IMG/VR virus record: IMGVR_UViG_3300025806_000250
Location: 1-22,298 of that record
Length of the DNA stretch: 22,298 bases
Direction: 5' to 3' (one strand)
Source: a virus
Position 1 is the stretch's first letter, and each line of letters opens with the position of its first letter. Made by a program: the position numbers and the translations under genes. Below, one piece after another: positions 3,125 through 17,255 of the stretch. Under the pieces are notes generated by a model, which did not search any database, was not told where the DNA came from, and saw nothing but the letters and a program-made list of their open reading frames with translations.

Positions 3125-3165
3125 ATATTCACATATATCGTGTCGTTGTGCAAGTGTTTGCACAA
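3125..3165 (-). promoter_or_regulatory. leftward promoter P1 with perfect operator palindrome
   Basis: On the minus strand: -35 TTGCAC (3148-3153), 17-base spacer starting AACGACACGATA, -10 GAATAT (3125-3130). The -35 lies inside a perfect palindrome TTGTGCAA-GTGT-TTGCACAA (3146-3165), so a repressor bound there would cover the -35. The transcript would run into the 193-residue gene. Confidence 0.75.
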
Positions 3166-3226: not shown

Positions 3227-3267
3227 ATGTGCAAATATGTGTACAACGACACGGTATGTGCTATTAT
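3227..3267 (+). promoter_or_regulatory. rightward promoter P2, same regulon
   Basis: -35 GTGTAC (3239-3244), 17-base spacer starting AACGACACGGTA, -10 TATTAT (3262-3267). An imperfect operator ATGTGCAA-ATAT-GTGTACAA (3227-3246) covers the -35. The leader at 3271-3290, TATGTAGGGTAATTAATCAA, matches 19 of 20 bases of the leader of the 14927-15484 gene. It drives 3308-4265. Confidence 0.75.
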
Positions 3268-5687: not shown

Positions 5688-6446
5688 CTAGAACGGAATG
5701 TCGTCGTCGATTAAGGGCTCATTCTTGGCAATCTCCGCAGCGGTTGCTGCAGCTGCTGCCTGGTCCTTGGCCATAGCTTCCAGGCCAGTGGTTCTTTGTG
5801 GCGCTGCTGCTGGGGCTGGTTCACCCTTCTTCTGAGCTGCTGCTACTTCAAAGCATGGGCGCACCTGGTCTTTATCGGGCTCATCGCAACCACCAATTCT
5901 CCACTGAATGAAGCGTGGCAGCTCTTCATATACATCGCACATTTGCTTGCTGGCTTCAGTAGCATCGCCGGTGAATTCTTTGCAGTATTCTTCCAGGTCA
6001 AACACGGAGGTTGGGTTGGTTGTTTCTACACGCTTGGCGCCGTTGTCTGAGCAAAATATGCCATCGACCTTGGCGTTGCCGTTGCTGTTTAGGACCACAT
6101 TGATCTTACAGGTAACTCCCAGGAGCTTTGTAAGGTCAAAAGCCTGCAGCTCATCTTCAGTGAACGGCTTGTTTCTCCATGCCTGGAGATCTCGCCGTAG
6201 ATTACTTCGCTCATTTAGTGACAAGGTGTACCCATGAAAGATAGAATACGGTCGGCCATCGCTCAGTGTGAGCTCAGGGATTTCCCAGAAGATGTAAATT
6301 TTATGCTTCTTGGATATCTCTCCTTTGTAATCTTCTTCCGCTGTGCCTGCATCGACAAGTCGATAGCAGATTGCCTCGTAAGAGCCTGGTGGTACGGTTT
6401 CAAAGGTTGATTCGCCGCCCGATCCTGCGCTTGCTGTTAGTGCCAT
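5688..6446 (-). CDS. phage single-stranded DNA-binding protein (SSB-like)
   Basis: A 252-residue protein whose N-terminal two thirds form a beta-rich domain (VPPGSYEAICYRLVDAG, then HKIYIFWEIPE and a tail around LLGVTCKINVVLNSNG). A disordered Ala/Pro/Lys linker follows, and the end is LIDDDIPF. An acidic terminus ending DDDIPF is the hallmark of SSB proteins and is used to recruit partner proteins. GAGAGGA precedes ATG 6446. It is first in the minus-strand operon with HTH-DUF3310 and RecE-like genes and is transcribed divergently from the primase-helicase, so it likely coats ssDNA in both replication and recombination. The fold is not the classic bacterial SSB sequence pattern; the call rests on tail and context. 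Confidence 0.75.
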   Translation of the reverse strand: MALTASAGSGGESTFETVPPGSYEAICYRLVDAGTAEEDYKGEISKKHKIYIFWEIPELTLSDGRPYSIFHGYTLSLNERSNLRRDLQAWRNKPFTEDELQAFDLTKLLGVTCKINVVLNSNGNAKVDGIFCSDNGAKRVETTNPTSVFDLEEYCKEFTGDATEASKQMCDVYEELPRFIQWRIGGCDEPDKDQVRPCFEVAAAQKKGEPAPAAAPQRTTGLEAMAKDQAAAAATAAEIAKNEPLIDDDIPF

Positions 6447-6470
6447 TTTACAATTCCTCTCATTTATGGG

Positions 6471-6499
6471 TTGTTGTTTGTAACTCTTTGCACTATTCT
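6471..6499 (+). promoter_or_regulatory. rightward promoter of the primase-helicase gene
   Basis: -35 TTGTTG (6471-6476), 17-base spacer, -10 TATTCT (6494-6499). The spacer contains TTTGCAC, a half-site of the regulon operator. Its -10 overlaps the -10 of the leftward promoter by five bases. Confidence 0.55.
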
Positions 6500-6522
6500 A
6501 CACATTCTACGCGGAGGATCAA
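6495..6522 (-). promoter_or_regulatory. leftward promoter of the SSB operon
   Basis: Minus strand: -35 TTGATC (6517-6522), 16-base spacer, -10 TAGAAT (6495-6500). Sharing the -10 region with the rightward promoter means only one polymerase could bind at a time. Confidence 0.5.
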
Positions 6523-6529
6523 CAAAATA

Positions 6530-8692
6530 ATGTCATTTCTAGTCAGTGCAACTAATCCAAAAGATAAATCTAGGCCCATAACGGGCAACTTCAGGCAAGA
6601 GTTTGAGGCGTTCCTGGCAGAAAATGGCTTGCAGCTGGACCATAAGAAGGGTCTGCTGGTCGATGGAAGTATAGGTAGAGCTTACATGGATGTCGATGGT
6701 AAGCATAAGCTCACTGGCTGGTATCAATTCTGGGCAGATCAATCAATCCCCTTTGGCCGCTGCGGTGACTACCGAGTAGACAGTGCCAACCCAACTGCAA
6801 CCTGGAAGCCGAACAACAGCGGCAACTACAAGATGACTGATGAGCAGCGAGAAGAGATTAAGCTGCTGCAGGATGAAGCCCAGGCAAAGAAGGAAGAGCG
6901 TAACAACAGAGCTGCCAAGCGCAGCCAGAATATTTGGGAGGCTGCTGCAGCGTGTACTGAGCACCCATACCTAACCAAGAAGAACGTGCCCAGCTTTGGG
7001 CTCAAGCAGCATAATGATGGCCGGCTGATGATTCCGCTTTTGGACTCTGCCCTGGTCATTGTTGGTCTTCAGTATATTGACGATGGTGGGGGGAAGATGT
7101 TCCTCACTGGTTCCAAGAAGAAGGCCAGCTTCTTCATCCTGGGCCAGGAGCTGCTCAAGGATGCCCACACTATCAACTACTGTGAGGGTTATGCCACTGC
7201 AGCTAGTTACTACCAGGATATGAACCAGCCGGTGGTGGTGAGCTTTGATGCTTACAATCTGGCTCCGGTAGCTGAGGTGATATTCAAGCACTTCGGTGAG
7301 GCCAAGCATGTATTCATCGCGGATTTCGACGACAACAGCACGGGTGAGAAGGAAGCAATCAAAGCTGCCCAGGCTGTTAAATCTGGGGGTGGCCAGGCTG
7401 AGGTATTCATGCCGCAGTCCAAGGGTGATTACAACGATCATAAAGAGCTGCTGCAGGGTGAGGTTATGCCGGCGCTGCAGGAGGTTTCGATTCCCCAGGA
7501 GTATGACTTTGAGCGCAACAGCAATGGGCGCTTCTTGCATACCAAAGACAATCACCGTGGCGTCCTGGTTACTAATCAGATCCAGGTGGACTACAACGTC
7601 ATAAAGAAAGCCATAGAGATTGAGATCCCTCACCAGAAGTTTATCGCTGACCTGAAGGATGATGCGGCGATCATTGAGATCGAGGATCGGTGTATCAAGA
7701 TGGGCATCCCTCATGAAAGGGTACGGTTTAATCTGAAGCTGCTGGCCAGGGAGTACAATCCGGTCAAGGAGTGGATGGAGAGTGTGCCCTGGGATGGCAA
7801 GACCAGGCTGCAGATGTTCCTGGACACTATCAAGAGTCCAAACGAGCCGCTCAAAGAGATGCTGATGAAGAAGTGGCTTCTAGGTTGTGTGGCTGCAGCA
7901 TGCGAGGAGGGCGGAGCTAATTTGGAAGGTATTTTGGTATTCCAGGGAGCCCAGGCAGTCGGAAAGACGCAGTGGTTTGGTAGCCTGGCACCGAACAAAG
8001 AGTGGCTGCTGGAAGGCGCTACCCTCAATCCCCAGGACAAAGACAGTGTGAAGCAGTGTGTTAGCCATTGGATCTGTGAGCTCGGAGAGCTGGGATCCAC
8101 CTTTAAGCGTGCAGATATTGACCAGCTCAAGGCGTTCCTAACCAAGCGCAGTGATGAGCTGCGGCTACCGTATGACCGAGCGTTTAGCAACTATCAGCGG
8201 CGTACTGCATTCTATGCCAGTGTGAATGAGAAGGAATTCCTTATTGATACCAGCGGCAACAGACGGTTCTGGGTTGTACCGGTGACGGCCATAGACTGGC
8301 GCCATGGTCTGAACATGCAGCAAGTGTGGGCTGAGATCAAGGAGACGATGTATGCCAAGGGAGATCGTAACTGGTTCCTCACAAGTGAAGAGCGGGTGAT
8401 GCTGCAGGATAGCAATGAGTTCTTTAGAACCCAGAGCGCGGTTGAGGACCTGCTGTTACAATACATTAAGTTTGATAGCGCAGACAAGAAGCCGGTCCAG
8501 ATGACGCACCTACTCAGAGACATGGGGATCAACAACCCCAGGATGGCGGACTTCAAGGATGCAGCACGGGTGCTCGCTGATCGCGGTGTTGAACCAAGAT
8601 ATAGCAATGGTAAGAAGATATATGACCTGGATTATGACGCGGTAATCACCGCAGATGACTCCTTCCCGCCGGCCCCAAAGTGGGATAACTGA
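6530..8692 (+). CDS. Toprim primase fused to VirE/SF3-type helicase
   Basis: A 720-residue replication protein. The start is ATG 6530 with GGAGG upstream; the frame is open earlier but that region is the opposite gene and the promoters. The N-terminal ~170 residues include a charged helix (EEIKLLQDEAQAKKEERNN). A Toprim region follows (about 210-300), with E219 in YCEGYATA and the acidic DFDD at 265-268, then KGDYNDH. The C-terminal half is a virulence-associated E (PF05272-like) helicase/ATPase with Walker A GAQAVGKT (473-480), a WICELGEL block, KRSDELRLPYDR and SGNRRFWVVPV. The protein probably primes and unwinds phage DNA. A zinc-binding domain is not evident. It stands alone, divergent from the SSB operon and followed by the AT-rich intergenic stretch. 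Confidence 0.9.
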   Translation: MSFLVSATNPKDKSRPITGNFRQEFEAFLAENGLQLDHKKGLLVDGSIGRAYMDVDGKHKLTGWYQFWADQSIPFGRCGDYRVDSANPTATWKPNNSGNYKMTDEQREEIKLLQDEAQAKKEERNNRAAKRSQNIWEAAAACTEHPYLTKKNVPSFGLKQHNDGRLMIPLLDSALVIVGLQYIDDGGGKMFLTGSKKKASFFILGQELLKDAHTINYCEGYATAASYYQDMNQPVVVSFDAYNLAPVAEVIFKHFGEAKHVFIADFDDNSTGEKEAIKAAQAVKSGGGQAEVFMPQSKGDYNDHKELLQGEVMPALQEVSIPQEYDFERNSNGRFLHTKDNHRGVLVTNQIQVDYNVIKKAIEIEIPHQKFIADLKDDAAIIEIEDRCIKMGIPHERVRFNLKLLAREYNPVKEWMESVPWDGKTRLQMFLDTIKSPNEPLKEMLMKKWLLGCVAAACEEGGANLEGILVFQGAQAVGKTQWFGSLAPNKEWLLEGATLNPQDKDSVKQCVSHWICELGELGSTFKRADIDQLKAFLTKRSDELRLPYDRAFSNYQRRTAFYASVNEKEFLIDTSGNRRFWVVPVTAIDWRHGLNMQQVWAEIKETMYAKGDRNWFLTSEERVMLQDSNEFFRTQSAVEDLLLQYIKFDSADKKPVQMTHLLRDMGINNPRMADFKDAARVLADRGVEPRYSNGKKIYDLDYDAVITADDSFPPAPKWDN

Positions 8693-8998
8693 CAGGTAGG
8701 GGTAGGGTGGGAAGGTAGGCATTTGATTGATATCATGTCGATGTATAAAGTTGGTATAAGTGGACACGATAATGTATAGAAGTTTGCACATTGAAGGTAG
8801 CTATACACTGTACACTGTTAAGGCATGAGCTAAGTCATTGATATGTGGGGTCTTTTTATATAGGTAGGGTAGGGTATAGTCTTTTAGGTAAGGTAGTTTT
8901 ATATAAGTATAAAGTAGAGTTATTTATAGTTTATATAGTGTTATATAGCCTTACTGTGAGACACCTACTATACCCTACACTGTACACTGGAGAATGAT
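8693..8998 (+). other. AT-rich, C-poor intergenic stretch, candidate origin
   Basis: About 306 bases without a gene. It opens with a G-run cluster (8695-8719) and contains a telomere-like GGTAGGGTAGGG (8863-8874). It then runs into very AT-rich DNA: 8881-8940 has 12 G and a single C. A 14-base direct repeat TACACTGTACACTG occurs at both sides. A GACACGATA element (8763-8771) and a TTTGCACA half operator (8783-8790) recall the regulon promoters. The position right behind the primase-helicase would suit a replication origin or a packaging signal ahead of the terminase gene; both are inference. Confidence 0.45.
8804..8989 (+). repeat. 14-base direct repeat pair TACACTGTACACTG
   Basis: Identical copies at 8804-8817 and 8976-8989, start to start 172 bases. 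Each contains CACTG twice (CACTGTACACTG), so each is itself a tandem of a short unit. They flank the AT-rich run and the second copy adjoins the ribosome site of the 58-residue gene, so they could be iterons or binding sites. Confidence 0.7.
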
Positions 8999-9175: not shown

Positions 9176-9678
9176 GCAGACCTAGGAAAGAAAAGCCCAA
9201 GCTCACCAATGCGCCCATTCAATTCGTCGCAGACGAGGAGCTGGGCATAACAGATATGCAAGCAGGGTTCGTCTGGCACTACACCGAAGGCGCATGCGGA
9301 CAGACTGAGGCAGCTCGAAGAGCAGGCTTCAGCTTCCCATCCAATGCTGCATCGAAGATGTTGAACGGTAGAGATCATCCGAAGGTAACAAAGGCAATAC
9401 GGATTGCCCAGGAAGAGCTGCGAGAGAAGTATGCAATCACGCCAGAGAAGACCGGTGCAATGCTATGGAACATAGCCGAGACTTCATTCGAGCAGGGTGC
9501 ATACAATGCTGCAGTGAGTGCAGTGAAGGAGCTCAACAGCCTAGCTGGACTGTCAATACAACGCAGCCAGAACCTTAACATCAATGCCAACCTGGACAAG
9601 ATGACCAAGGAGGATATCAAGGAGCGCTTGAACGACTTATTAGGTATCAAAAGTACCTTCGATGACAAAGATTTATAG
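9151..9678 (+). CDS. terS: terminase small subunit
   Basis: A 175-residue protein fitting the Terminase_2 (PF03592-like) pattern. A basic, Lys/Arg-rich N-terminus leads into a helix-turn-helix: ITDMQAGFVWHYTEG, QTEAARRAGFS and a partially conserved ASKMLNGRDHPKV. Then come helices with AITPEKTGAMLWNIAE and AVSAVKELNSLAGL that resemble the central oligomerisation domain. The C-terminus (MTKEDIKERLNDLLGI) may contact the large subunit. Small terminases recognise the packaging site and recruit the large subunit; no large subunit is visible, and the following 520 bases are non-coding, so the large subunit is elsewhere. GGGGG precedes the ATG at a suitable distance. Confidence 0.8.
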   Translation: MAEEEKKVGRPRKEKPKLTNAPIQFVADEELGITDMQAGFVWHYTEGACGQTEAARRAGFSFPSNAASKMLNGRDHPKVTKAIRIAQEELREKYAITPEKTGAMLWNIAETSFEQGAYNAAVSAVKELNSLAGLSIQRSQNLNINANLDKMTKEDIKERLNDLLGIKSTFDDKDL

Positions 9679-10025
9679 CGCGTAGCGCAAAGCAAACGGT
9701 GGGCGTAGGATGGTTGTATATAACCAAGAAAGGGGCGGCGCCCGCCCAGAGCCCAGGATTATAAAAAAAAGGCATAAAAAAGGGAATTCCCATAACTATC
9801 AGTGATGTAGGGCTGGTTTCCCTGGGGATTGAACACCCTGGTATGCGTCCCCTGTGAGCACGGGGGTCACAAACGGGGCAGATTGGGCCTGATTTGCTGG
9901 GATATGGGCTACCAGGGCAGCATTTTATTGGACCCCTATGGACCTGGGAATTAGAATCGAACATTGCTTGATTTTTTTGGGGGGCACCCCCCTAAATGCG
10001 GCGGCGGCCAGCGGGATAGGTTTAC

Positions 10026-10054
10026 TTGAGTTTTACACATTGAGTAACTAAAAT
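10026..10054 (+). promoter_or_regulatory. candidate rightward promoter for the 10.2-12.9 kb operon
   Basis: -35 TTGAGT (10026-10031), 17-base spacer, -10 TAAAAT (10049-10054). It lies upstream of the operator at 10091, which would sit in the transcribed leader. Strength is modest. Confidence 0.4.
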
Positions 10055-10090
10055 TCTGCAAGGGATAAACTCTTTCCCATCCCAGGTTTC

Positions 10091-10110
10091 ATGTGCAAAA
10101 GTTTGCACAC
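10091..10110. promoter_or_regulatory. operator palindrome of the regulon
   Basis: ATGTGCAA-AAGT-TTGCACAC: seven-base half-sites TGTGCAA and TTGCACA with the same four-base spacing as the perfect site at 3146-3165. It stands about 90 bases before the resolvase-like gene and downstream of the promoter-like pair, where a bound repressor could block elongation. Confidence 0.65.
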
Positions 10111-10198
10111 AATATGATCCAGGGGGGTAAACGCCAGGTACGTTTGGACTGCCTGGGGGTGAAAATTTTTTTCAATTTTTTAAATAAAAGGAAATGAC

Positions 10199-10648
10199 AT
10201 GGCTGATTCACGCAATAAAGGAGCTGCCTTCGAGCGTGATTTGGTCAAGCGCCTAAATACTTTTTTTGCAGATAATGACCTGGACCTGAGCTGTAAGCGC
10301 AATTTGGACCAGTATCAGACTGCAGGCATGTGCGATATTGAGATACCTGGCCATGCTATCGAGGCCAAAGCGTACAAGAGCGGCTGGTGGTATTCGCCCG
10401 CCTGGTGGGCCCAGGTGTGTGAAGCGTGCGGTGATCGGGTTCCGGTGCTGATTTACAAGTTTAACAACAAAGCCATAAGGGTTTGCGTGCCGATCTACGC
10501 GATTAGTCCTGGTTATGAGCGCGACAATGCTCAGACTGTGGTAATGACATTGGACCAATGGTTTATACTATTAGCTAAATACTTTAAGGAGGGTAGTTAT
10601 GGCGGTCAAAAAAAAATCGACGGTGAACGCTGCGGGCAACTATACTAA
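10199..10648 (+). CDS. PD-(D/E)XK nuclease, Holliday-junction-resolvase-like
   Basis: A 149-residue protein with AAGGAAA before ATG 10199. The nuclease core is visible as RNKGAAFERDL (E12), a central YQTAGMCDIEI (D46) and IEAKAY (E55, K57), i.e. E..D..ExK. An aromatic stretch WWYSPAWWAQV follows. This layout fits archaeal-type Hjc and phage Holliday-junction resolvases, which would cut branched DNA before packaging. A nicking or VRR-NUC-like role is an alternative. It opens the plus-strand operon reaching 12893 and overlaps the next gene by 50 bases, so the last ~16 residues (after the KYF region) are encoded in shared DNA. Confidence 0.75.
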   Translation: MADSRNKGAAFERDLVKRLNTFFADNDLDLSCKRNLDQYQTAGMCDIEIPGHAIEAKAYKSGWWYSPAWWAQVCEACGDRVPVLIYKFNNKAIRVCVPIYAISPGYERDNAQTVVMTLDQWFILLAKYFKEGSYGGQKKIDGERCGQLY

Positions 10649-11517: not shown

Positions 11518-11622
11518 ATGGACGATTGGAAAGATCCTGATACCTGGAAAGGTCTGGCGCTTGCGCTAGTTGCCTTTGTCATTGTCCTGTGGGCAGTATT
11601 TTCTGGAGAAAGGCTCTCGTGA
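11518..11622 (+). CDS. single-span membrane miniprotein, 34 aa
   Basis: A short frame from ATG 11518. The peptide starts with an acidic/aromatic face (MDDWKDPDTWK) and then one hydrophobic span (GLALALVAFVIVLWAVFSG) ending in a basic tail (ERLS). The stop overlaps the GTG start of the next gene (GTGA), and the ribosome site GGAGAAAGG of the next gene is inside it. A pinholin-like or ejection-accessory role is possible, but position and topology are the only evidence. Confidence 0.55.
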   Translation: MDDWKDPDTWKGLALALVAFVIVLWAVFSGERLS

Positions 11623-12893
11623 ATAGGGATGATATTGACATATTTGGCTACAACCTGGGTGGCAGCGTCAGCGAAATGATGCGTAATCCTAAGTTGGAGC
11701 GTGATCCAATTACTCTTCCTACTGGCCCTCAAGTGGCTAATTTTTTATCGAACCTTGCTCCTGGTGCTGCGCTTCTTGATTCTACTGGCAATATGCCTGG
11801 CATGGTAGATCGTGATGCTGGGTTCACCGATATATTTGATGCTGAGAACAATCCTTCTATCCTGGAGAATATTCGCCAGGGCAACATCCTAGATCCTGCG
11901 CTGCAGGCGTTAGGCGTCCTGGGTGATGCCACATATGCGATTCCGCCGCTCGGAGCTACACTGGGGACCGCGTTGAAGGCGCCAGGGGCACTTAGAAAAG
12001 CCATGAAGCTGACCGGTGGAATTGATAATCTGCCCCAGGATGTTGCCAGGGTTGGTGATGGCGTTGAGGCTATTGACTCAGCCAGGTTGATTGCAGCGAT
12101 TGAGCAGGGCTCCCTGGTAGATGGTCCGATTAGAACCACCCCCGTATTCCAGGAACTAGGCATTGAGCGAGTGCGTGAGATTGAGGCTGCGCTTAAACGG
12201 CAGCAGGGCGATCTTAATTCGGTTGAAGCCATGGTCCAGCGAGCTAATACAGTAAATCCCTCCTTCCAGGCTAACATTGATTCAGTGGCTAAGTCAGTTG
12301 GTGGCAAGAAGGCTGATAAGTTTATCAACCTAAAAGATGGCAGCCAGTTTGATGTTGAGGTCAAGACGCCTGGCAGCATAGCCACCAAGGTTGAGCGCAA
12401 GGGCCTGAAGCCTGCAGACTTTACTGATGGCGTAAGAACAACGATCTACATAGATACTGCAGACCAGGCGGAAGAGGCTGTTAATCAGATTGGCCAGATG
12501 TACACGACTATTGACCGAGGTTGGCAGCGCATACCTGAGTCTGGTTACTTTGACCGCAAGATGAACGTCCTGGTTGATGATCCGGCTACCGGTAAGAAGA
12601 TTGTTGCCGAGATCCAGATTAAGACGCCTGAAATGTTTGATGCTGGGGAGCAGGGAGCTCACCGCTGGTATGATTACTCCAGGAAGTTGGAGGGAAGGTA
12701 TAACCATGAAATACCTGGCACTAAGTTGAAGCTATACAATAAGGCGCTTGCTGAGCAGAGGCGCCTCTTTGGTGCTGCCTTTGATGCAGCGGATCCTGCT
12801 ATTTTAGAGCAGCTTGTTGATAAGTTTATGCGAGGGGGAGCTGTGGTAGCTGGTCCCCAATCTTTCCGTATTTCATTTCAAAACTGGGCTTAG
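11619..12893 (+). CDS. virion-type protein with C-terminal RelA/SpoT synthetase-like domain
   Basis: A 424-residue protein. I chose GTG 11619 (GTGA overlap, GGAGAAAGG upstream) over the earlier in-frame ATG at 11589. Residues ~1-150 are Gly/Ala-rich with hydrophobic segments (NFLSNLAPGAALLD; ALQALGVLGDATYAIPPLG), like phage ejection or polyvalent proteins. Residues ~200-365 match the RelA/SpoT nucleotidyltransferase pattern: VKTPGSIATKVERK (K249, S253, K257), D270-GV-R273 followed by TTIYID, GYFDRKMNVLV, and the EIQIKT block (E331, Q333) with GAHRWYDY (H348, Y351). The domain transfers pyrophosphate from ATP to GTP/GDP, or to tRNA in toxic variants. Activity here is inferred. The HD hydrolase gene at 13061 lies convergently 170 bases away. 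Confidence 0.75.
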   Translation: MNRDDIDIFGYNLGGSVSEMMRNPKLERDPITLPTGPQVANFLSNLAPGAALLDSTGNMPGMVDRDAGFTDIFDAENNPSILENIRQGNILDPALQALGVLGDATYAIPPLGATLGTALKAPGALRKAMKLTGGIDNLPQDVARVGDGVEAIDSARLIAAIEQGSLVDGPIRTTPVFQELGIERVREIEAALKRQQGDLNSVEAMVQRANTVNPSFQANIDSVAKSVGGKKADKFINLKDGSQFDVEVKTPGSIATKVERKGLKPADFTDGVRTTIYIDTADQAEEAVNQIGQMYTTIDRGWQRIPESGYFDRKMNVLVDDPATGKKIVAEIQIKTPEMFDAGEQGAHRWYDYSRKLEGRYNHEIPGTKLKLYNKALAEQRRLFGAAFDAADPAILEQLVDKFMRGGAVVAGPQSFRISFQNWA

Positions 12894-16226: not shown

Positions 16227-16467
16227 AGAAGCCAGGGTTAAGAAGGTTTATGCGAATCGCGTGCGCCGTATATGTAAGGCGCACAATATTGAGATTGTTT
16301 ATGACGGCGTGCCAAAGAATTACGCTGCAGTAGAGCTGGTCAAGAATGGCCAGGTAATGTTTGCTGACCGAGCCCCAGACCGGCGGCCTTTAAACATTGA
16401 TTGGCAGCGACTGTTTGTTGAAGTTACCGATTACGGATACAAGTGTAGGGAGAGAAAGATCATATGA
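16213..16467 (+). CDS. hypothetical protein, 84 aa
   Basis: GGAGG sits seven bases before ATG 16213. It is an alpha/beta protein with a basic helix (EARVKKVYANRVRRICKAHN), strands (IEIVYDG; YAAVELVKNGQVMFAD) and a C-terminal helix (WQRLFVEVTDYGYKCRERK). It overlaps the serine recombinase start by four bases (ATGA). It could be a DNA-binding accessory (directionality or regulatory) factor for the recombinase, which is inference from position. Confidence 0.65.
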   Translation: MPVSEEARVKKVYANRVRRICKAHNIEIVYDGVPKNYAAVELVKNGQVMFADRAPDRRPLNIDWQRLFVEVTDYGYKCRERKII

Positions 16468-17255
16468 TTAGTCCATTAAAACAAATTAACAATATCTATG
16501 GCTATGTCAGGGTATCTACCAAAGAGCAGGTCCGCTCTGGTGTATCTTTAGAGGTGCAGCAGCAGCAGATTACTGATTTTGTAAAAGAGAAGTATAACCG
16601 TAAGGTTTCAGGCTTCTTGATAGATGATGGAGTATCGGGCACCAGGCCAATTCTTGATCGACCAGGCAGCAAGGAGCTGACAGACATAATTGACCGTCAC
16701 GATGTAATAGTCTGCACTCGATTAGACAGATTGTCCAGGTCCAGCGCTGATTTACTGTCAATTATCCCTGTTCTGCAGGATATCGGCATTACATTGTTCT
16801 TTTGTGAGCAGTTTGGTGAGGTTCCGATTGTGTATCCTAAGCCAGAAGGCGCCAAGGGGCTGCGATCTAAGTTTGATATGAATGAAATGGCTAATCAGAT
16901 CATGTTGATGGTCCTATCTGCAGTTGCTGAGATTGAGCACTCAACGATTAAGGACCGATTCGGCGATGGCAAGGTAGACTGGGCTTCTCGCGGTTATTTC
17001 ATTGGTGGCAGCGCCCCATACGGGTACAAAAAGGTCCAGGAGAAGCATGGCAATAAGACCAGGACTCGCCTGGAGGAGATCCCCGAAGAGCAGGATGTGC
17101 TGCTGACTATATACAAACTGCGGGACCGAGGGCTGGGCCCCAGGAAGATTGCTAAGCAGGTCGCCTCGCTTCACACTTGCGCTGAAGACATAAGTTACTC
17201 TAAAGTACGCCGTATCCTGGATAGAAAATTCCAAGGTATCGGCGAAGCAGCATAG
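16464..17255 (+). CDS. serine recombinase (resolvase/invertase-type), 263 aa
   Basis: The N-terminal resolvase catalytic domain is clear: GYVRVSTKEQ with the nucleophile S18 and R16, a GVSLEVQQQQI helix, DDGVSG and the RLDRLSRS block (R86, R89, R92). A long helix (ANQIMLMVLSAVAEIEHSTI) leads into a C-terminal HTH-like part (RGLGPRKIAKQVASL, YSKVRRILDRKF). Lacking the long zinc/coiled-coil arm of large serine integrases, it is a small-to-medium recombinase that could invert, resolve or integrate DNA. Start ATG 16464 overlaps the previous gene by four bases. It lies at the end of the P4 operon, immediately before the structural genes, rather than next to an obvious attachment site. Confidence 0.9.
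   Translation: MISPLKQINNIYGYVRVSTKEQVRSGVSLEVQQQQITDFVKEKYNRKVSGFLIDDGVSGTRPILDRPGSKELTDIIDRHDVIVCTRLDRLSRSSADLLSIIPVLQDIGITLFFCEQFGEVPIVYPKPEGAKGLRSKFDMNEMANQIMLMVLSAVAEIEHSTIKDRFGDGKVDWASRGYFIGGSAPYGYKKVQEKHGNKTRTRLEEIPEEQDVLLTIYKLRDRGLGPRKIAKQVASLHTCAEDISYSKVRRILDRKFQGIGEAA

Follow-up and report, generated by a model that had tools for sequence, protein, structure and literature searches.

The gene for the small terminase subunit (terS) of an uncultured phage is followed by a 520-nt gene-free region, which we propose to be a composite of cis-acting DNA signals, its main conserved part being a candidate pac site. The window, by which we mean the whole 22.3-kb stretch of DNA analysed, is a virus record from IMG/VR, as are the relatives with which it is compared, and some of its small genes resemble those of HMO-2011-type marine phages. 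In the proposed pathway, TerS from the upstream gene would assemble on a rigid core in the 3′ part of the region (blocks D, F and G, Table 1) and would recruit the large subunit (TerL), encoded ∼15–19 kb downstream in relatives; TerL would make the first cut in the concatemer at the core, and headful packaging would proceed from that cut. A hairpin near the 5′ end is the probable terminator of the primase-terS transcript. The 3′ end of the gap, with an operator, an AT-rich run and a ribosome site, probably controls the next unit. We infer these steps, from TerS binding through the cut to headful packaging, and both transcription roles from the comparisons below, and we regard the chances that the gap is a pac-type site with operon-boundary signals around it as even. 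A cos site and a non-coding RNA are both unlikely.

Recognition of pac by TerS is called unclear and controversial in the available part of a 2022 review (PMC9611059). More than 120 unique natural candidate sites (122 in all) can now each be matched to the TerS of the same phage, and the blocks of likely contact and their spacing are marked in them; these pairs make pac recognition directly testable by swaps. If the proposal is true, it also supplies a packaging signal in a group of uncultured marine phages whose genome ends we found nowhere mapped; the parts of the literature that were searched hold no description of the element or of a pac site in this group.

The gene-free region and its neighbours

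The preliminary description had remarked on half a kilobase without a gene directly after terS, and the gap is real, running from the stop of the terS-like gene at 9678 to the next ATG at 10199. The longest open reading frame contained entirely within it has 41 codons' worth of product (41 aa), and the only longer frame that overlaps it (9647–9964, minus strand, 105 aa) extends into terS; the longest frames in the gap are not the same ones across relatives. Most relatives have a gap of 465–840 nt at this place, reaching 1.7 kb where a gene is inserted, and a long gap is not peculiar to the window phage. It is bordered by terS on the 5′ side and a nuclease gene (nuc) on the 3′ side, with the primase-helicase gene further upstream.

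Table 1. Positions of genes, conserved blocks and other features in and around the gap.
Feature	Coordinates	Strand	Basis
Primase-helicase gene, Toprim and VapE-like domains	6371–8692	+	PF05272, E 7.6e-51; PF13362, E 1.1e-8
terS, small terminase subunit, 175 aa	9151–9678	+	phrog_51 terminase small subunit profile, E 1.1e-9
Gene-free region between terS and nuc	9679–10198		ORF calls; same place in relatives
Conserved ∼330-nt element	9727–10058	+	nhmmer profile; 127/127 deduplicated terS loci
Block A, GC-rich hairpin ∼55 nt past the terS stop	9733–9747	+	significant dyad in 22/53 representatives
Block B, short dyad TGTGAGCACA, either orientation in relatives	9851–9864		alignment of relatives
Core block D, TTGGACCCCTATGGACC	9926–9950	+	alignment; fixed spacing to F
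Core block F, conserved GGCACCCCCC, right arm of GGGGGGCACCCCCC	9979–9993	+	alignment
Core block G, family consensus GCTATAGCtgAGTTTGGCaCATtcAat...AAAA	10013–10056	+	alignment
Palindromic operator TGTGCAAA-N2-TTTGCACA, upstream of nuc	10092–10109		near copies elsewhere in window
nuc, PDDEXK / RusA-like nuclease gene	10199–10648	+	PF24608, 28.7 bits (cut-off 27); phrog_244, E 5e-15

The TerS assignment comes from the PHROG profile, and the protein misses the curated cut-off of Terminase_2 (PF03592), with 22.3 bits against 26.1. Its predicted model is of moderate quality (mean pLDDT 73.7); a Foldseek search with this model ranked an SPP1-like TerS first, with E > 1, and the helix-turn-helix (HTH) region matched the DNA-binding domain of SF6 TerS with a TMt of 0.81 but an E of 4.7. 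Because both E values are above 1, the likeness of the predicted fold to SPP1/SF6 TerS is a hint only of kinship. A scan of genome contigs with the TerS profile gave three weak partial matches and no clear prophage of this phage group.

Two further genes of the window may be mentioned. A 434-aa protein (11589–12893) has a RelA/SpoT-like region barely over its Pfam cut-off (27.3 against 27 bits) and also a weak match to a head-morphogenesis PHROG, and a serine recombinase (PF00239, phrog_95) is encoded at 16464–17255.

A conserved element in the gap

Comparison of the gap across related genomes, which the preliminary description had proposed, reveals a conserved element of ∼330 nt. A nucleotide profile (9725–10060) built from 35 representatives finds it at E < 1e-3 beside terS in all 127 deduplicated loci with at least 700 nt downstream of the gene, a count to be read with the facts that those 35 gaps are among the ones scored and that some loci were fetched via block G itself. 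Among the loci anchored on TerS in IMG/VR, 80 of 99 were kept, and the four of these that lack a profile hit are all contig-end cases: L005, L027 and L045 stop 2, 4 and 8 nt past terS, and L074 stops within it. The full-length elements comprise 122 unique sequences, of which 53 are below 85% mutual identity. The profile gives a single strong hit per locus and a single place per near-complete relative, as is expected of a pac site; the weak second hits seen in many loci are the same palindromic block on the other strand. With the consensus of block G alone, the best match (of 30 positions) stands clear of the next in G003 (23), G014 (26) and G002 (23), against 18–19, and by a narrow margin in G011 (22 against 20) and G006 (21 against 20); in G010 the element is cut off by the end of the contig. 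The more distant phages HTVC027P, 023Pt_psg01 and DSL-LC04, which have TerS relatives, gave no profile hit at E ≤ 10 in the stretches searched, and it is accordingly within the closer group that TerS and element are conserved together.

The three conserved blocks of the 3′ core (9926–10056) are held at nearly constant distances, as measured from the alignment. Block D (family form GGACCCCTATGG) lies 51 nt from block F in 47 sequences (interquartile range 51–51, range 47–53), and block F lies 30–33 nt from the dyad of block G, a block that can also be rendered GCTATAGC..AGTTTGGCACATTCAAT...AAAA and that has internal spacings of 14 nt in 46/47 and 18 nt in 47/47 sequences. The distance from block B to block D, in contrast, varies from 19 to 106 nt, and the element thus consists of a rigid core of ∼130 nt and a loose 5′ half. 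In seven loci (L054, L056, L057, L076, L077, L212 and L216) a distinct conserved word near TAACTGACGTAAATTTGCATTTAAGGAAGTTA replaces the region before block D.

Inverted repeats had been listed among the features of the gap. The three perfect repeats (9733–9747, 9782–9791 and 9979–9992) are exact, and such GC-rich repeats are enriched, with five placements that overlap, where shuffled sequence averages 0.24; of 168 windows of 520 nt taken along the contig, two reach this number. However, they are for the most part not what is conserved: the first is a significant dyad in many representatives (block A, Table 1), but the second, GGGAATTCCC, occurs in 3 of 53 (the window, L006 and L007; three further sequences carry different dyads at this place), and of the third, GGGGGGCACCCCCC, only the right arm is general, the dyad being significant in 9 of 53. 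Repeated words of 7–9 bases are not above shuffle level: a k-mer search found no 8–9-base word three times and no 7-base word four times in the gap; repeated words of the GGGACCCC/AGGGGTACC type are found in some other clades and are absent from the window.

Association of the core with TerS

Among 75 contigs with the block G pattern, terS is present in the fetched stretch of 70, nuc in 68, and the primase gene in 58. The distance from the site to terS is 260–560 nt in most of them, that from block G to nuc is anywhere between 76 and 1314 nt, and the position of the primase gene is likewise variable; in L193, L220 and L228 it is further off and the element is still with terS. The variable distance to nuc is in several cases due to an inserted Gly/Gln/Pro-rich gene of 240–350 codons, which is inserted ∼115–147 nt after block G in L177, L179, L183, L190, L224 and L233. 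Two loci (L189 and L230) have ∼1.4 kb of other genes between terS and block G, which is the one part of the element that can still be recognised there. Three others (L191, L201 and L217) have none of the three genes and no profile hit, and their block G matches are probably due to chance.

The divergence of the element was compared with that of the neighbouring proteins using distance matrices calculated for the 80 loci in which every part is present, with partial rank correlations given the other proteins. The core follows TerS (partial correlation 0.36, equalled in 0 of 199 permutations) more than the nuclease (0.14) or the primase (−0.05), and follows the N-terminal, HTH-bearing part of TerS (0.36) more than the rest of the protein (0.22). 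For the 5′ half the corresponding values are 0.09 for TerS, 0.22 for the nuclease and 0.20 for the primase. Since it is the core that tracks TerS and not the 5′ half, although the latter lies nearer to terS, the pattern argues for recognition of the core by TerS and not mere neighbourhood. The co-divergence is modest, and poorer alignment of the 5′ half could exaggerate the contrast; with 50 non-redundant loci the values for the core are 0.31 (TerS), 0.09 (nuclease) and −0.01 (primase), and the difference between TerS and nuclease is just above zero (5–95% interval 0.01 to 0.41).

The preliminary description had suggested that the gap is a cos or pac site of the neighbouring small terminase. 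The pac form of this suggestion is the best supported, with the element beside terS, in single copy by profile and with a core that co-diverges with TerS, whereas the cos form is disfavoured (see below). A point against a pac site is the length of the element, which at ∼330 nt exceeds the 22 bp of the P22 pac as given in the accessible part of PMC9611059.

Transcription signals around the element

A different explanation is that the gap is a hub for transcription, containing the terminator of the primase-terS unit, operators, and the sole promoter or antitermination leader of the long structural operon, with the conserved blocks binding regulators instead of TerS. We consider this possible but rather doubtful. 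In its favour, block A is a terminator-like hairpin and the probable terminator of the primase-terS unit; in L007 the hairpin is followed by a T run, and the window itself has no good T run on the plus strand. The operator that the preliminary description had reported in the gap is present, and copies of the palindrome recur at several intergenic places (3147–3164, 3228–3245 and 8773–8790 in addition to that in Table 1, four at ≤3 mismatches against 0.17 expected) and probably constitute the regulon of a phage repressor. In G014, most of the long open reading frames past the gap are co-directional over ∼40 kb, and a promoter-like sequence, TTGAGT-17-TAAAAT, lies inside block G. However, promoter-like sites are at chance level (three against 1.5 expected), a leader would be one with no shared RNA structure, and the operator is clade-specific and lies outside the conserved element. 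Furthermore, the wide range of block G to nuc distances, and a core that follows TerS more than the downstream nuclease, fit poorly with control of the next gene as the function of the blocks.

An origin of replication

The gap could also be a replication origin, in which an AT-rich 5′ or middle part would be melted by the nearby primase-helicase; we think this improbable. The element adjoins the primase-helicase module, an AT-rich stretch is present (9759–9781), and the divergence of a middle segment (9771–9845) tracks that of the primase (partial correlation 0.30). Nevertheless, the element remains with terS in the three loci where the primase gene is farther away, the gap is without the repeated words noted above, and the GC skew has no switch at the gap in G014 or G003, although the skew is uninformative here because it mostly follows the coding strand.

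Because the divergence of the 5′ and middle part goes with that of the primase, and the divergence of the core with that of TerS, both functions could be combined in one 330-bp element with two coupled switches, the 3′ core read by TerS as pac and the AT-rich 5′ part read by the primase-helicase as origin. Were this arrangement true, the initiation of replication and that of packaging would be decided on the same 330 bp, but we judge it distinctly improbable. In more general terms, pac, late-operon control and origin functions may overlap.

Genome ends and the large terminase gene

The absence of the large terminase gene had been pointed out, and there is indeed no TerL in the window. It is not missing from the phage group, however: in a relative with a TerS 95% identical to that of the window (G003), TerL starts 14.5 kb downstream of terS, and as the window contig stops 12.6 kb past terS it ends too early to include the gene. 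The TerL of G003 is 57–61% identical to those of Pelagibacter phages HTVC027P and HTVC023P, phage 023Pt_psg01 and phage DSL-LC04. The PF03237 profile found no TerL in 20 records, although it was positive in 6 of 14 control genomes; queries with a protein located TerL in 10 of 14 long records, 14.5–19.0 kb downstream of terS in four and 32.7–35.4 kb upstream in six, with none found in the remaining four. These two arrangements correspond to one circular map of ∼50–55 kb.

A cos site would have fixed cohesive ends cut in the gap, and this is very unlikely. The region adjoins the TerS gene, as a cos site could, and the three contigs that stop just past terS (L005, L027 and L045) are from different clades. 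These stops may be an assembly effect at the passage from conserved coding to variable sequence, and are otherwise due to chance or to a real end. The other contig ends are scattered, with no clear excess in the gap, most contigs run through it, and the near-complete relatives are circular permutations of one map; these are ends of contigs and not of virion DNA, and circular or concatemeric intracellular DNA would look alike. With permuted relatives and no clustering of contig ends in the gap, the data agree better with headful packaging from a pac site than with cos.

The other idea in the preliminary description, a structured non-coding RNA, is barely credible: the plus strand of the gap has a folding energy z of −2.5 against shuffles, but the terS gene alone, as a control, reaches −2.1 on its minus strand; RNAalifold predicts 69 pairs for 11 close relatives, nine with any double change, but 0 shared pairs over 47 homologues; an Rfam scan gave no match; and two of the three cited hairpins have arms that lack conservation. 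With no shared RNA pairs, and z-scores little beyond those of the coding control, the element would appear to act as DNA.

CCNGG bias

A dense set of CCWGG pentamers had been described in the gap, and there are nine against 1.7 expected from shuffles. This is mostly a genome-wide property of the clade and not a feature of the gap, as the whole window contains 177 CCWGG against ∼52 expected and no CCSGG against ∼25 expected; within nine genes there are 93 CCWGG against 29.9 ± 4.2 with synonymous shuffling. Among 80 loci, 19 (the window clade) combine CCWGG excess with CCSGG loss, 56 have CCWGG loss, one has the excess only, and four have neither; CCWGG is entirely absent from most relatives over as much as 55 kb (G003, G002, G014 and G011 were compared). 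A phage-encoded cytosine methylase or Vsr does not explain the bias, since neither PF00145 nor PF03852 was found in eight records. Host restriction/modification that differs between clades is the likely source of the CCNGG losses, and does not explain the CCWGG excess. Other words are also depleted: GCWGC occurs once in G014 against 176 expected, GGWCC 0–1 times in G011, G010 and G006, and GATC 0 times in the 17 kb of HMO-2011 examined.

Comparison with known packaging systems

No similarity to isolate-phage DNA was found within the gap itself. The cos site of lambda is likewise recognised by TerS, and the window hairpin GGGCGGCGCCC resembles the lambda overhang (PMC9611059, in the part available); this likeness is not conserved in relatives, whose maps are permuted. 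The pac of P22 lies inside the TerS gene, according to the same partial source.

In HTVC027P, 023Pt_psg01 and DSL-LC04, annotated TerS relatives, found by profile, are separated from TerL by ∼3–5 kb, a separation shared with the window group; HTVC027P and 023Pt_psg01 differ from the window in having a convergent gene after terS. Sinorhizobium phage PhiM6, of the HMO-2011 group, has a pac predicted by PhageTerm and set as position 1, as stated in the accessible part of PMC6256558, and its record (MH700630) has no annotated gene from 66224 to 68176 and from 1 to 600, with TerL starting at 1082. The predicted pac is thus in a long gene-free stretch, as in the window, here just before the TerL gene; the terminase of PhiM6 is of another lineage with an adjacent TerL, and a search of two stretches with the element profile gave no match.

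Counterparts in layout are the Bacillus phages SPP1 and SF6, in which headful packaging starts from a pac sequence (PMC6316719 and PMC4737164, both in part). The pac of SPP1 overlaps promoters and the start of gene 1, and TerS binds two flanking parts between which TerL cuts (PMC6316719, same extract). The arrangements differ in that the TerL gene of SPP1, gene 2, is by its name the next one, whereas the window element is 3′ of terS and TerL is 15–19 kb away. What they have in common, in the portions of PMC6316719 and PMC4737164 available, is a multi-part region beside the TerS gene, overlapping transcription signals and a TerS with an HTH; the TerS proteins themselves are related by weak similarity of fold and profile only.
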